IMG/VR virus record: IMGVR_UViG_3300012147_000088
Span: 1 to 22,780 of that record
Origin: a virus
DNA length: 22,780 nucleotides
Direction: 5' to 3' (one strand)
This document shows positions 5,681 to 14,709 of this stretch, one piece after another (the stretch's first letter is position 1; each line of letters opens with the position of its first letter). Under the pieces are notes generated by a model. The model was not told where the DNA came from. It did no database searches and was given only the letters and a program-made list of their open reading frames with translations. The position numbers and the translations under genes were made by a program.

Positions 5681-6274
5681 CTAGGGGGTAGTGATAAGGA
5701 ACGTGAACGTGCCAGCATTGAATCCGAGCGCGCCCGGGAAACCGAAAAACCCGAATGGATTGGATCCGGCCCCGACCGCAGTCACGCCCACCACCGCCGG
5801 TTTGGCGAGCAGGATGAGGCGCCGAATCGCGTCGATCTGGTTTGCATCTAGGCCCGTGATCGGCTGTGTGATGGTCAACGTGAAATTCGCATCGCCGGGG
5901 CCGTCTGCGTAGAGCACCCCGCCCTGGTTGAGAATCGCGTTCACGATGTCGACGATTGTACGCGCCGAGCCGTCGGAGCGCAATGCACGCAGTTTTTGAC
6001 CTATGAGCGTCCGAAACTCATCGTCCGTGCGCGTCCCGCGCGACTCCTCGACGATGCGCCCGAAGATATCAAGCGCCCAGTCGGAGACTCCGCCAGTAAA
6101 CGCGAGGCTCGTCGCGAGGTCAAAAGCGTCGTCCTCCAGGCATTGAATCTGCCGGACGAGCGCGGCGATCACGGGGCCGATCACGGCGTCCGTGCGCACG
6201 GGCGTGACCACCTCGCTAGCATCGGCCACCCCCTCGTGGTCGGGCTGGTAGATCCATTCACCGTCGTAGGGCAT
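5681..6274 (-). CDS. gpI-like baseplate protein (DUF2612-like)
   Basis: 197 aa, ATG at 6274 with AGGA 6 nt upstream. The diagnostic stretch is RGTRTDDEFRTLIGQKLRAL at residues 79-98, followed by SDGSARTIVDIVNAIL. This matches the conserved core of phage baseplate proteins of the DUF2612/Mu gp48/P2 gpI type, which sit at the outer edge of the wedge and link to tail fibres. The C-terminus is Gly/Phe-rich (FGFFGFPGALGFNAG), also usual in the family. It lies directly between baseplate J and the first fibre gene, the conserved order in contractile-tail loci. Confidence 0.8.
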   Translation of the reverse strand: MPYDGEWIYQPDHEGVADASEVVTPVRTDAVIGPVIAALVRQIQCLEDDAFDLATSLAFTGGVSDWALDIFGRIVEESRGTRTDDEFRTLIGQKLRALRSDGSARTIVDIVNAILNQGGVLYADGPGDANFTLTITQPITGLDANQIDAIRRLILLAKPAVVGVTAVGAGSNPFGFFGFPGALGFNAGTFTFLITTP

Positions 6275-7869: not shown

Positions 7870-8526
7870 TTACCTCGCCTTTACGGTGTCGGACGCCACG
7901 GAGGCCCCCCCGAGCATCGGAGTCAGTGTCGGGCTGGTCGGCGTGGTCGGCGCATTGGTGGGGTGCACGTGCGCGTTGAACACCCCCTCCATCGCTTGCA
8001 AGCGGCTCTCGACCCGGTCGGCGCGGGCGAGGAACTGAGTCGCGGAGAGCCCTCCGAACCGGAACTCACCGCCCTCGAAGACGATCGCGTCGTCCGGGGG
8101 CTCGGCCTCGGCCGCGTCGAACGATCGCAGCCCGGGCAGAAACACAGCGTCCGAGAGATCAAACCGCGTGAACCGCGCGGGCGTGGTCGGGCGCGTCTGC
8201 CCGTTGAGCCATTCGTCGATCGAGCGGTGGCACACGAGCAGGACGCCCGTGTCACCGGCGCGCGGGCGGAACCGAATGCCCACGCCCGCCCCGCCGAACA
8301 TGGCGACCGGCACGTCGTATATGGGCGGCTCCTCGTCGTAGGCGACGCTCGGATCCGGCGCGTCGTCCTCGTCGTCGAACACCAAATACGGCGTCCGGAC
8401 GTCTACGCGCACCGTAGCGCGCGGATGTTCGTATGCGATCACCGTGGCGGGGAGCGCGACGCGAACGCGTTGCATCGCCTGCGTGGCGGCGCTCGCAGCT
8501 ACCTGATCGACGGTCTCTGTGGTCAT
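7870..8526 (-). CDS. Baseplate spike protein, gpV/Gp138_N-like with HxH tip motif
   Basis: 218 aa, ATG at 8526 with GAGGAG 8 nt upstream. Residues 25-110 form an OB-fold-like region: VRVALPATVIAYEHPRATV, PIYDVPVAMF, RFRPRAGDTGVLLVCHRSID. The last motif is typical of the Gp138 N-terminal and gpV OB domains. A short stalk (EGGEFRFGGL) and a helix (RVESRLQAMEGVF) lead to NAHVHPTN, with His186 and His188. An HxH near the C-terminus is known in gpV-type spikes to bind an iron ion at the trimer tip. The protein would be the membrane-piercing tip under the hub. Encoded directly after the hub gene. Confidence 0.83.
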   Translation of the reverse strand: MTTETVDQVAASAATQAMQRVRVALPATVIAYEHPRATVRVDVRTPYLVFDDEDDAPDPSVAYDEEPPIYDVPVAMFGGAGVGIRFRPRAGDTGVLLVCHRSIDEWLNGQTRPTTPARFTRFDLSDAVFLPGLRSFDAAEAEPPDDAIVFEGGEFRFGGLSATQFLARADRVESRLQAMEGVFNAHVHPTNAPTTPTSPTLTPMLGGASVASDTVKAR

Positions 8527-10476: not shown

Positions 10477-12459
10477 TCAAGGCTCCGATGGTTGCACGCT
10501 CGCGCTCGCATCGCGCAGCGCGGAGGTGAAATCGTTTGCCATGGTGGCGGCCATCTCGGGAGAGTAGGACATCCCGCCTTGCACCTCGATCGTAACCGAG
10601 CCCACATTAGTCGTGCCACCCACCGATGACATCCCGCCCGAGTCGCCCCCGGTCCGAGAGCCGTGGTAGGCGCTCATACGCGCGTTGTAGGCGGCCATGC
10701 GTGTGTTGTAGTCGGCGGCCGAGCCCCCGGCGTTCGGGCTCACGCCCGGACCGTATTGCATGGTGTTCCGGCTGCGAAGCGCATCGCCGCCCGTGAACCC
10801 GGCCGCCGCGCGCTGGCTCCGGTACTGGGCATCGCCCGGATTCTGACTGGGTAGCAGAGCGGCGGCCGCGGCCGCGCGCGCGGCCGCGCGCGTGGCCGAC
10901 CGCTCATCTTTTGTCTGCATCCCGAGCATCGAGGCTACCGCGTCGTTCGCCTTTCTCACGCTAGCGTCGTCGGAGAAATCTATCCGACCAATCGTTTCCA
11001 GGTTATCCAGGAACGCGGAGGTCTCTTCGGAGAATGTGAACGCTCTGTTCATCATCTCGGAGAATTCGATCGTGACAGCAAGCACCTCTGTGAGCGCCGC
11101 CGCTAGGTCCGTCGTCGCCCGAACCGCCTTCAGAACGAGGATGATGAACGTGATCATCGAAGATTCCATCTGGCTCACCCCCTCGCTGTCCTGCCCGTCG
11201 GCCATGAAATTGAGGAATGACCTAGATGCGACGTTTAGGCGATCCATCTCATCCGCGAATCCCTGTATAGATGCCTTAAGCTCGATCATCGTTTTCTGGA
11301 GTCGCGGCGAGCGGTCGATGAGCCGCCCGATGACCGAGTCTCCGCCCTCCATATACGCGAACAGATCGAAGAGCACCGCGATGATTCCGCCCAAAACCAG
11401 ACCTAGAACGACGCCGACGCCGCCTAGCATCTTGAAAAAGTACACGACGCTCGCACTACCTGCGAGAGCCAGGAAGCCGACCGCCATCTCAGCGACGAGA
11501 GGCACGACACCTTGTAGTAGAGTCATGGCCTTGTCCGCGGCCTGCGAGCCGCCCAGCTTCTCGAAAGCGGATTGTGCGTACGTGCCGATCTTCTTGAACT
11601 CATCGCCCATGAGCTGCGCCCAGGATTTCATCCATTTCGCAGATAGCGGCGACTTGCCTTTCACGAAATTGTTCTGAATGAAAGTCTGGATGCCCTTCGC
11701 AGCGTAACCAAAAGCGGGGGCGAGCGCGGCGCCCAGGCTGTTACCCAGGCCCTCGACCGTGAATTGCAGTTTGCGAAACTCTACCTGAGCGAGTTTCAGG
11801 TTTTTGGTCTCTTTCGGGCTTAGGATCAGGCCCAAATCCCCCGCCACCCTTTCGAGGTCTCTGAAAGAGGCCTCGCCGGTGGTGAGCGCTGGGATGAGTC
11901 GGCGCCCGAGATCGTCGCCGAACGTACGCACGGAGGCGGTGAGCGCCTGCGTGCGGTCTTTCATCACAGAGGCCCTTTCCATGAAAAGGCGAAGCAGCTC
12001 GGCGGGCTTTTTGTCTTTCAGCTCGTCTAGCGAGATGCCGACCCGCTTGAACTCTTTGAGAGAATCCGCCGAGCCTTCCAGCGCGGATTTCGCGCGGTCC
12101 GTGATCGTACCCATCGCATCCGCGAGGTCGTCCGTGGACCCGCCCAGCACCTTGAACACGGTGTTGAGCCGCTGGATCTCCTGGGCGCTCGTCGAGAAAC
12201 CAACGGCCATGCGCTCGATCTGCTCGCCGAACGCAGCGCTGCGCCTGACTAGGACGCCCTGAGCGCCGAACCCGACAGCGAGCGCGGCGCCCACACCGGC
12301 GGCCGCCGCGAGCAACGCTCCCATCGACTGCGCCGCACGGGCAAACGCCGCCTCGACGTCGAACCCCGCTTTTTCTACTTTCTTGAACTCGGAGGCTGCT
12401 TTTGAGCCGCCGCTCGCGCCGAGCTTAAAATTCACCTCTTTCAGGGTTTGTTTTGACAC
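10477..12459 (-). CDS. Tail tape measure protein
   Basis: 660 aa from a GTG at 12459, with GAGGTAAC 6-7 nt upstream, 3 nt after the frameshift extension's stop. The N-terminus (MSKQTLKEVNFKLGASGGSK, then AASEFKKVEKAGFDVEAA) and the first 200 residues have the helical pattern usual for tape measures. Hydrophobic segments lie at about 46-70 and 317-370, the second long enough for two transmembrane helices (VGFLALAGSASVVYFF; GVGVVLGLVLGGIIAVLFDL). An Ala/Arg low-complexity stretch near 520-533 is encoded by GC-only repeats. The C-terminus is Gly/Ser-rich and ends with a predicted beta/helix module. The protein sets tail length and is injected ahead of DNA. The position right after the chaperone pair confirms it. 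Confidence 0.93.
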   Translation of the reverse strand: MSKQTLKEVNFKLGASGGSKAASEFKKVEKAGFDVEAAFARAAQSMGALLAAAAGVGAALAVGFGAQGVLVRRSAAFGEQIERMAVGFSTSAQEIQRLNTVFKVLGGSTDDLADAMGTITDRAKSALEGSADSLKEFKRVGISLDELKDKKPAELLRLFMERASVMKDRTQALTASVRTFGDDLGRRLIPALTTGEASFRDLERVAGDLGLILSPKETKNLKLAQVEFRKLQFTVEGLGNSLGAALAPAFGYAAKGIQTFIQNNFVKGKSPLSAKWMKSWAQLMGDEFKKIGTYAQSAFEKLGGSQAADKAMTLLQGVVPLVAEMAVGFLALAGSASVVYFFKMLGGVGVVLGLVLGGIIAVLFDLFAYMEGGDSVIGRLIDRSPRLQKTMIELKASIQGFADEMDRLNVASRSFLNFMADGQDSEGVSQMESSMITFIILVLKAVRATTDLAAALTEVLAVTIEFSEMMNRAFTFSEETSAFLDNLETIGRIDFSDDASVRKANDAVASMLGMQTKDERSATRAAARAAAAAALLPSQNPGDAQYRSQRAAAGFTGGDALRSRNTMQYGPGVSPNAGGSAADYNTRMAAYNARMSAYHGSRTGGDSGGMSSVGGTTNVGSVTIEVQGGMSYSPEMAATMANDFTSALRDASASVQPSEP

Positions 12460-12462
12460 GCG

Positions 12463-12711
12463 TTACCTCGTTTTAGACGCCTCGATTTGCGCATCCAGCT
12501 CGTCACATAAAACGAGAGCTTCTGTGATCTCGCGAAATGACCACGACTGCCGGATTACCGGAGCCGATACGCCTCGGCCCACCTGCTCGTGTAGGACAAT
12601 ACGCCAAATTGTCCAGTCGATCAGATAACCTTGCGGTGTTTTCGCGGCCCTCGCCGCGATCATCTTTTCCCGTGGTGAAAGCTTTATCGAGGCTTTCAAC
12701 CACCGAAAGAT
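12463..12711 (-). CDS. Tail assembly chaperone -1 frameshift extension (gpT-like part of gpGT)
   Basis: This open frame has no good start of its own: only a TTG at 12699 without a ribosome site, sitting inside the end of the previous gene. It is in the -1 frame relative to the upstream chaperone and becomes the C-terminal part of a fusion if ribosomes slip at T TTT TTA (12717-12711). The fusion would read ...GFLDFL-IFRWLKASIKLS..., giving 132 + 82 = 214 residues over 13106-12463. The extension is basic at first (KLSPREKMIAARAAKTPQ) and then carries a helical tail (SFREITEALVLCDELDAQIE). In lambda and many other phages the gpGT-type fusion binds tape measure protein during tail assembly. The tape measure gene follows 3 nt downstream. 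Confidence 0.8.
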   Translation of the reverse strand: MFRWLKASIKLSPREKMIAARAAKTPQGYLIDWTIWRIVLHEQVGRGVSAPVIRQSWSFREITEALVLCDELDAQIEASKTR

Positions 12712-12717
12712 AAAAAA
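12672..12717 (-). promoter_or_regulatory. -1 programmed ribosomal frameshift signal
   Basis: The minus-strand message reads GAT TTT TTA in the zero frame, so the last T plus TTT TTA is an X XXY YYZ slippery heptamer (12717-12711) in the correct phase. A 7-nt spacer (12710-12704) leads to a hairpin: 5' arm 12703-12692 (GTGGTTGAAAGC), 9-nt loop 12691-12683, 3' arm 12682-12672 (GCTTTCACCAC). The stem has 11 bp with one bulged U. The zero-frame TGA (12698-12696) is inside the stem. The open frame reached by the slip is the one that runs to 12463. Confidence 0.85.
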
Positions 12718-13106
12718 TCCAGGAACCCATTATATGCAATGACTTCCTTCAACACGCCCAGCAGCTCCGCATAGTTTCGCGTGTACGCCGCGTCGTACAC
12801 GTTGTCATCTCGGAGCTTTTCCCCGTCGCGCGTCGTCTCGGCCAGGATCCGGCGGATGAGTTTCATGTCAAGCTCGCGGAGAGCCTGCTTTACACCGCGC
12901 CCGATCGCGCTGTTGTCCAGCCCCTCCGCCTGCTTGCCCATCATGTATGGGATTGCGATGGGGGCCAACGGCTCGGAGAGCAGCGCAGAGAGGTCTCGGA
13001 CGATGGAATCGCCGCCTCGTGACGGCGTGATCGCCGTCGTGGTGTAGCGATGCTCGACGCCGCTGCGATCGACGAGATTGAACGTGGTTGTGTTCGTGAT
13101 TTCCAT
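12696..13106 (-). CDS. Tail assembly chaperone (gpG-like)
   Basis: 136 aa, ATG at 13106 with AGGAG 9 nt upstream. The N-terminus is a beta hairpin-like stretch (MEITNTTTFNLVDRSGVEHRY), then a helical body (SIVRDLSALLSEPLAPIAI; GVKQALRELDMKLIRRILAE) and a C-terminus YAELLGVLKEVIAYNGFLDF. Size, soluble helical character and position between tube and tape measure are those of gpG-type chaperones, which coat the tape measure before tube polymerisation. The gene ends in a frameshift signal, giving a minor longer product. Sequence similarity to lambda gpG is not apparent; identification rests on synteny and the frameshift. Confidence 0.82.
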   Translation of the reverse strand: MEITNTTTFNLVDRSGVEHRYTTTAITPSRGGDSIVRDLSALLSEPLAPIAIPYMMGKQAEGLDNSAIGRGVKQALRELDMKLIRRILAETTRDGEKLRDDNVYDAAYTRNYAELLGVLKEVIAYNGFLDFLSFGG

Positions 13107-13125: not shown

Positions 13126-13596
13126 TCACGGTAGTAGCGCCTCGGGCGTGTTGAGCCCGCCGAGTGTCATGAGTCGCTTGCCAAACGGCAGCTCAAGACG
13201 GAACTCGCGAGTACCTGCAACACGGCCCTTAGACGGGCCCGGGCGATTCATGAAAATCGCCTGCGGGGAGCTGATTGTATCACCAGAAATGGTATCCACG
13301 TGTGAGTACGTGACGGTGAGCAGCGAACCGCGCTGAGCGCGTTGACCACGAAGCAGGGTGTCGAGGTAACCCACGCTCGGGCTGGTTTCCATGAGCGTGA
13401 TGGTCACGCCCACGCGCTCGTCATTCAAACGCGAGTAGACGGGCGCGCGCCCGTCGCTGCTATTCGCAGACTCGTGCTCATCGGATAGCATCTCGTACTC
13501 GACCGCGCCCTCCTCGTCGAACGAGCCGATTCGCACAGAACCGATCGCGATCACGTTGGCAGTGAGGTCGTAGAGTTTTGCTGTTTGGAAACTCAT
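13126..13596 (-). CDS. Tail tube protein (DUF3277-like)
   Basis: 156 aa, ATG at 13596 with AGGAG 6 nt upstream. The family pattern is seen in YSRLNDERVGVTITLMETSP followed by SVGYLDTLLRGQ at about residues 54-85: DUF3277-type proteins carry N(D)..G.vTiTL.qtSPS...L at the same place. The N-terminal part is DLTANVIAIGSVRIGSFDEE, and the C-terminus is beta-rich (REFRLELPFGKRLMTLGG). The protein would stack as hexamers to make the inner tube of the contractile tail. It follows the sheath gene by 12 nt, the usual pairing. Confidence 0.82.
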   Translation of the reverse strand: MSFQTAKLYDLTANVIAIGSVRIGSFDEEGAVEYEMLSDEHESANSSDGRAPVYSRLNDERVGVTITLMETSPSVGYLDTLLRGQRAQRGSLLTVTYSHVDTISGDTISSPQAIFMNRPGPSKGRVAGTREFRLELPFGKRLMTLGGLNTPEALLP

Positions 13597-13608: not shown

Positions 13609-14709
13609 TCAGGGTGCGGTGACGACGGCCGAGCGGCTGAGGTCGACGTTAAAGATGAATCGGCGGACCTCTGTCGTGGTCTGCACGGCGGCGTTGACCC
13701 GGATAATCCCAGCTGCGATATCGGCGGCTGTGATAGGAGGAAGAGTCACGAGAATCTGACCTGGGACGATCTTGCCGAGCGCCTGCGCCCTCTCTAGGAG
13801 ATTCGAGATCACACCCGAGGTGAGCGCCTGCCCCTCGATGTCCACGCCGATGAGGTCACCGCGAGCGGCGGCCTGGGTATCCTGGTCAATCAACGCCTCC
13901 TGGGAGCGCGCCTTGATCCAGTCAGCGTTGAGCAATTCCAGGATCGGGCGTCCGATCGTCGTCGTGGCGGGGTGGACGAACGTGGGAACGCCACCGTAGC
14001 GAAGCGCTGTGTTCACGTTGTTAGCGACGGCGGTCGCGCGCTGCGAATCCGTGAGCCCTGTGACGAGCCCCGGCACGTTGGCCGCCCCTCGGAACCCGAA
14101 CGATCTGGCATCCGGGTCGAGCGCGAGCCGAGCGGCGGGGTGGATGATCTCGATGCCCGCGGTGAGCGGTGCGTCGTGATAGTAGAGAGTCAGGCCCTCG
14201 ACCAGCTCAACGCCTGCGAGCGGCCCGCCGCCGAGGGGAACGGACAACAGCTGCGCCTCGGAGGACACCATCGAGGTCTGGCGGCCGTCCGCACGGGCTG
14301 CGTTCGCGAGCGCGACGCGAGCCGGGGCGGTGGCGGTGACTGCCCCGCCCACTGCGATCCAGTACACGAGCCCGCCATTGGGCGCGGCTTTCATCGCGTT
14401 GTACTCTGAGATCAGGTTCGCACCCGAGGCGTCCGCCGTGACGACGCGCAGGCGCTCGGGAGAGGGGTTCTGAGCGAATGCCCGTGTCAACACGCTCGCA
14501 GTGTTCGCGTCGATGAAATTCGACGTAAGCGCCGCTGCCACGCCCTCGGCGCTCACGAAATCGAGGAAAAGCTCATCATCCAGCCAATCGCCGCCGAACC
14601 CAACGGGCTCGGGGATGAACCAAGCCACGCCGCCGAACCCGGCCGTGGGCGTGGGGGGCGGTGCCAGGGTGACATTGACCAGGACAGTGGGATTATGCGT
14701 AGCAGCCAT
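13609..14709 (-). CDS. Tail sheath protein (DUF3383-like)
   Basis: 366 aa, ATG at 14709 with GAGG 8 nt upstream. The N-terminal part (NPTVLVNVTLAPPPTPTAGF, then GGVAWFIPEP) has the beta strand used for the inter-subunit mesh. The middle includes FLDFVSAEGVAAALTSNFID and a Gly/Ala-rich domain (SNLLERAQALGKIVPGQILV near 310-330). The C-terminus (TEVRRFIFNVDLSRSAVV) is the closing strand of the sheath fold. Compared with sheath proteins of about 400-500 aa it is compact, in line with the DUF3383 group. The adjacent tube and terminator genes support the call; the tail is therefore contractile. Confidence 0.83.
   Translation of the reverse strand: MAATHNPTVLVNVTLAPPPTPTAGFGGVAWFIPEPVGFGGDWLDDELFLDFVSAEGVAAALTSNFIDANTASVLTRAFAQNPSPERLRVVTADASGANLISEYNAMKAAPNGGLVYWIAVGGAVTATAPARVALANAARADGRQTSMVSSEAQLLSVPLGGGPLAGVELVEGLTLYYHDAPLTAGIEIIHPAARLALDPDARSFGFRGAANVPGLVTGLTDSQRATAVANNVNTALRYGGVPTFVHPATTTIGRPILELLNADWIKARSQEALIDQDTQAAARGDLIGVDIEGQALTSGVISNLLERAQALGKIVPGQILVTLPPITAADIAAGIIRVNAAVQTTTEVRRFIFNVDLSRSAVVTAP

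Follow-up and report, generated by a model that had tools for sequence, protein, structure and literature searches.

A programmed −1 ribosomal frameshift very probably operates in the tail assembly chaperone gene of a contractile-tailed phage found in the window, by which we mean the whole 22,780-nucleotide stretch of viral DNA analyzed here (IMG/VR record IMGVR_UViG_3300012147_000088). The zero-frame ORF at 12696–13106, which is on the minus strand as are all window features given below, encodes a 136-aa short tail assembly chaperone (gpG-like, TAC-N), and the −1 frame at 12463–12711 (82 codons plus stop) would append a gpT-like domain, giving a predicted fusion of 214 aa. The 82 codons and the 214-aa fusion proposed in the first-pass annotation were both confirmed, and its reading of the locus as a gpG/gpGT-type chaperone pair with a −1 frameshift is supported by the identity of the gene, the gene order, the slippery site, the position of that site at the chaperone C terminus, the arrangement in relatives and published cases. 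Homology and prior knowledge are the basis on which we infer frameshifting itself, the ratio of its products and a role as chaperone.

Against the Pfam family Phage_TAC_15 (PF21822), the chaperone ORF scored 21.5 bits (E = 3.5e-4), half a bit short of the curated cut-off of 22, in a match that spans residues 35–132 of the ORF and positions 18–120 of the 127 in the profile; the chaperone of a near-identical contig scored 21.0 bits. The match to PHROG 1613, “tail assembly chaperone,” was weak (E = 0.026), and a profile built from the chaperones of relatives failed to single out the window chaperone among the window's proteins. A Shine-Dalgarno-like TAGGAG lies upstream of the chaperone ATG.

The flanking genes place this ORF within a tail module. 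Upstream are genes for a tail sheath (13609–14709; PHROG 205, E = 3.7e-20) and, immediately before the chaperone, a protein identified as tail tube-like from its match to PHROG 280 (E = 1.4e-16), a weak match to Pfam KPP10_Orf10 (E = 0.003) and its position after the sheath (13126–13596). The gene after the extension encodes the tail length tape measure protein (10477–12459; PHROG 2854, E = 3.6e-20), and past it profile matches identify Dit-like, hub, spike and wedge proteins. The ORF pair is thus flanked by tube and tape measure genes, as had been supposed from the letters alone. The gene order is the same as in Pseudomonas phage KPP10 and Burkholderia phage BgManors32, and the module is related to those of KPP10, BgManors32/Magia and phiPLPE-type phages. 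Since a sheath is present, together with wedge and spike proteins, the tail is contractile and the phage is not lambda-like; on this point the first-pass annotation, which had drawn its comparison with lambda-like phages, needs correcting. Elsewhere in the window, 1351–2106 encodes an endolysin that has a CHAP domain (Pfam E = 2e-7) and whose Asp-rich C-terminal stretch ends in a Cys-rich tail. Beside it, at 328–1146, short ORFs that overlap and include hydrophobic stretches may encode spanins or holins; the only match among them was a weak one, of the ORF at 554–907 to DUF7269.

The 3′ end of the chaperone ORF reads GAT TTT TTA TCT TTC GGT GGT TGA, and contains the heptamer T TTT TTA at 12717–12711 in the correct phase (zero-frame codons GAT TTT TTA), six codons before the stop. 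TTTTTTA occurs once in the window when both strands are counted (0.12 expected), and the site is one of 14 in-phase X XXY YYZ sites in the ~6400 codons of the 26 window genes examined. A 7-nt spacer (12710–12704) separates the heptamer from an 11-bp bulged hairpin at 12703–12672, which is made up of 4+1+6 bp with one bulged U and a 9-nt loop and encloses the zero-frame stop, TGA 12698–12696. The heptamer, spacer and hairpin all proved to be as first described. RNA folding of the hairpin region, which the first-pass annotation had suggested, gave a stable fold: the isolated hairpin has a minimum free energy of −15.1 kcal/mol, an absolute stability that many segments (15%) match because the GC content of the window is 64.6%, and a z score of −3.25, with 2 of 200 shuffled sequences equally stable. 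Among GC-matched 40-nt segments of the minus strand, the hairpin ranks in the top 0.4% for stability.

The −1 frame is open across the slip site up to the tape measure gene, with the extension stop at 12463 and the tape measure start at 12459. Such an open frame is by itself weak evidence, since in 11 of the 26 window genes the −1 frame stays open for 50 or more codons beyond the stop. Among the same 26 genes, an in-phase heptamer in the last 25 codons linked to an open −1 frame was found in the chaperone gene only, and it is on this combination that the weight of the case rests.

The extension itself is unusual. By codon usage, its frame ranks first of six, yet it scores −7.7 bits, compared with a minimum of +1.7 for segments of equal length from window genes; from 12463 to 12699, codon usage is clearly unlike that of other window genes although the frame is preserved. 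This atypical usage may reflect recent acquisition or a different constraint. Searches of Pfam and PHROG profiles returned no family match for the extension, and comparison with a profile of the extensions of 19 relatives detected no similarity (E = 0.046 at −0.1 bits in a one-sequence search; hhalign probability 0.2%). AlphaFold2 models from single sequences, in which the chaperone is mostly helical and the extension ends in a long helix, were too poor to use (pLDDT 43.6 and 53.3).

Searches of viral contigs with the chaperone, sheath, tube and major capsid proteins found a sole close relative, IMGVR_UViG_3300035698_009181, which is ~97–98% identical to the window, and searches of genome contigs with the tape measure and capsid proteins gave no match. 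In an alignment of the wedge protein, no segment was sufficiently conserved to scan with. The phage lineage with this element is sparsely sampled. Across 12728–12629, which comprises the heptamer, spacer and hairpin, the two contigs do not differ. Over the shared locus, six codons of the first frame are changed, five of them synonymously, and two codons of the −1 frame, both synonymously; this handful of changes lends weak support to the idea that selection acts on the −1 frame.

For a more distant comparison, we used 20 database phages (18 in one set, plus JD001 and KPP10), which do not represent 20 independent events because some, such as RCIP0034 and PDP110P2, are near-identical at the locus. 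In all 20, the −1 frame continues for some 50 codons or more beyond the chaperone stop, and in relatives it is also open back beyond the slip site. An in-phase X XXY YYZ heptamer is present in 18 of the 20. T-type sites include T TTT TTA, as in the window, in Manatee Spring phage, T TTT TTG in Mulock and its relatives, T TTT TTT in phiPLPE and T TTT TTC in JD001; mixed sites are C CCT TTT (BgManors32, Magia and WC36-2) and A AAT TTT (AbTJ and Ab105-1phi); and G GGA AAT (IFTN9) and a doubtful C CCA AAG (Vibrio phage 13VT501A) were also found. By the strict X XXY YYZ rule, Edwardsiella phage ZHS has no heptamer, and the KPP10 site is the looser G GTT TTT. In the chaperone alignment, most heptamers fall in neighboring columns of one C-terminal motif, around [N/S]LG[N/D]F[L/F]. 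This alignment sets the window heptamer three columns off, and a smaller alignment puts it in register with that of Manatee Spring phage. The heptamers of relatives are 12–26 codons from the stop, compared with six in the window. A z below −3 within the 55 nt downstream of the heptamer is confined to the window, IFTN9 and Ab105-1phi and, since most relatives lack an equivalent, the hairpin is at most an optional stimulator.

Lambda, which slips on the heptamer GGGAAAG, offers one comparison. As at the lambda gpG/gpGT locus, the window site precedes the tape measure gene, and a −1 shift late in the first frame would yield a short and an extended product. Unlike lambda, which has a non-contractile tail and another heptamer, the window combines a contractile tail with a U-rich site and a strong hairpin. 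The lambda case is an example of a conserved tail-gene frameshift (Xu, Hendrix and Duda, 2004, as cited in PMC5009743). Similar in arrangement are the TAC_15-family loci of BgManors32 and Magia (Burkholderia) and Mulock (Klebsiella), which share the order of sheath, tube, chaperone, −1 extension and tape measure and have a slippery site at the chaperone C terminus, with the frameshift annotated in Magia and Mulock. However, their slip sites are 17–21 codons before the stop rather than six, and their extensions are similar to one another but not to that of the window. A conserved −1 site, GTTTTT, has been described at the chaperone locus across Vandenendeviridae, with a like motif in Andersonviridae (2025; PMC12846349). 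As judged from KPP10, the Vandenendeviridae locus resembles ours in belonging to a contractile phage, in the −1 frame, in the T-rich slip site and in that the downstream ORF is mostly annotated as a separate gene, although the slip site is G GTT TTT instead of T TTT TTA. Finally, the HIV-1 gag-pol signal has the identical heptamer, U UUU UUA, followed by a simple hairpin, and the HIV UUUUUUA plus hairpin functions on E. coli ribosomes (PMC7282821). As the gene and its origin are unrelated, this likeness concerns the RNA mechanism only.

Could the extension instead be a separate small gene, translated from TTG 12699 or ATG 12663, with the heptamer incidental? The first-pass annotation had held that the −1 frame has no credible start of its own, which is mostly, if not absolutely, right. 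TTG 12699 lacks a Shine-Dalgarno sequence, whereas neighboring genes are preceded by AGGAG-like sequences at the usual spacing, but ATG 12663 has GGGA 5–8 nt upstream, such that a weakly started 66-aa product is conceivable, alone or beside the fusion. The atypical codon usage would also fit a separate gene, as would the small ORF annotated at the corresponding place in many relatives. However, the −1 frame of relatives is open to the far side of the slip site, heptamers recur at the homologous place, and both Magia and Mulock were deposited with a joined “frameshift product.” We consider a separate gene improbable. Several other relatives are annotated with a separate small ORF at the extension, and in public phage records the extension is often given an internal start and entered as a hypothetical gene in its own right (for example, 6067–6252, 6152–6271, 1365–1517, 1335–1511 and 8067–8288 in five records). 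These listings are probably an annotation artefact.

It is very unlikely that second-frame mRNAs arise by transcriptional slippage. The window does have a run of six T on which this might occur, but such a run is short for polymerase slippage, and the mixed sites of relatives (CCCTTTT and AAATTTT) suit tRNA slippage instead. We give still less credence to the idea that only the short chaperone is made and that the extension is decaying or non-coding intergenic DNA, as its low coding score and lack of a family match might suggest; against this, 82 codons are open up to the tape measure start, the frame is preserved in the near-identical contig with synonymous changes only (albeit just two), and the arrangement is common to relatives.

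If the gene is decoded by a programmed −1 frameshift, how might its two products arise and function? The majority of ribosomes would terminate at TGA 12698–12696 to release the 136-aa chaperone, and a minority would slip one base back on U UUU UUA to make the 214-aa chaperone with its C-terminal extension. Slippage would presumably involve a tandem shift of two tRNAs, from UUU UUA to UUU UUU. The hairpin 7 nt downstream may stimulate slippage, and a stimulatory hairpin would make sense at this site. By analogy with lambda gpG/gpGT, as that system is summarized in PMC5009743, the short form may coat the tape measure protein, and the extension may recruit tail tube subunits. In a more elaborate scenario, which we regard as a long shot, the extension would be a tube-recruiting domain that is unrelated or highly diverged and can also be translated independently, from a weak start at ATG 12663 beyond the hairpin. 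Three products would then come from the locus: the short chaperone, the fusion and the extension domain by itself. The hairpin would tune initiation as well as slippage.

A programmed −1 frameshift here would leave the general picture unchanged, since it is a well-known recoding event, known from many phages. Contractile-tailed phages of a sparsely sampled lineage would join those in which it occurs and, for annotation, the extension would belong to the chaperone and not to a separate small gene.
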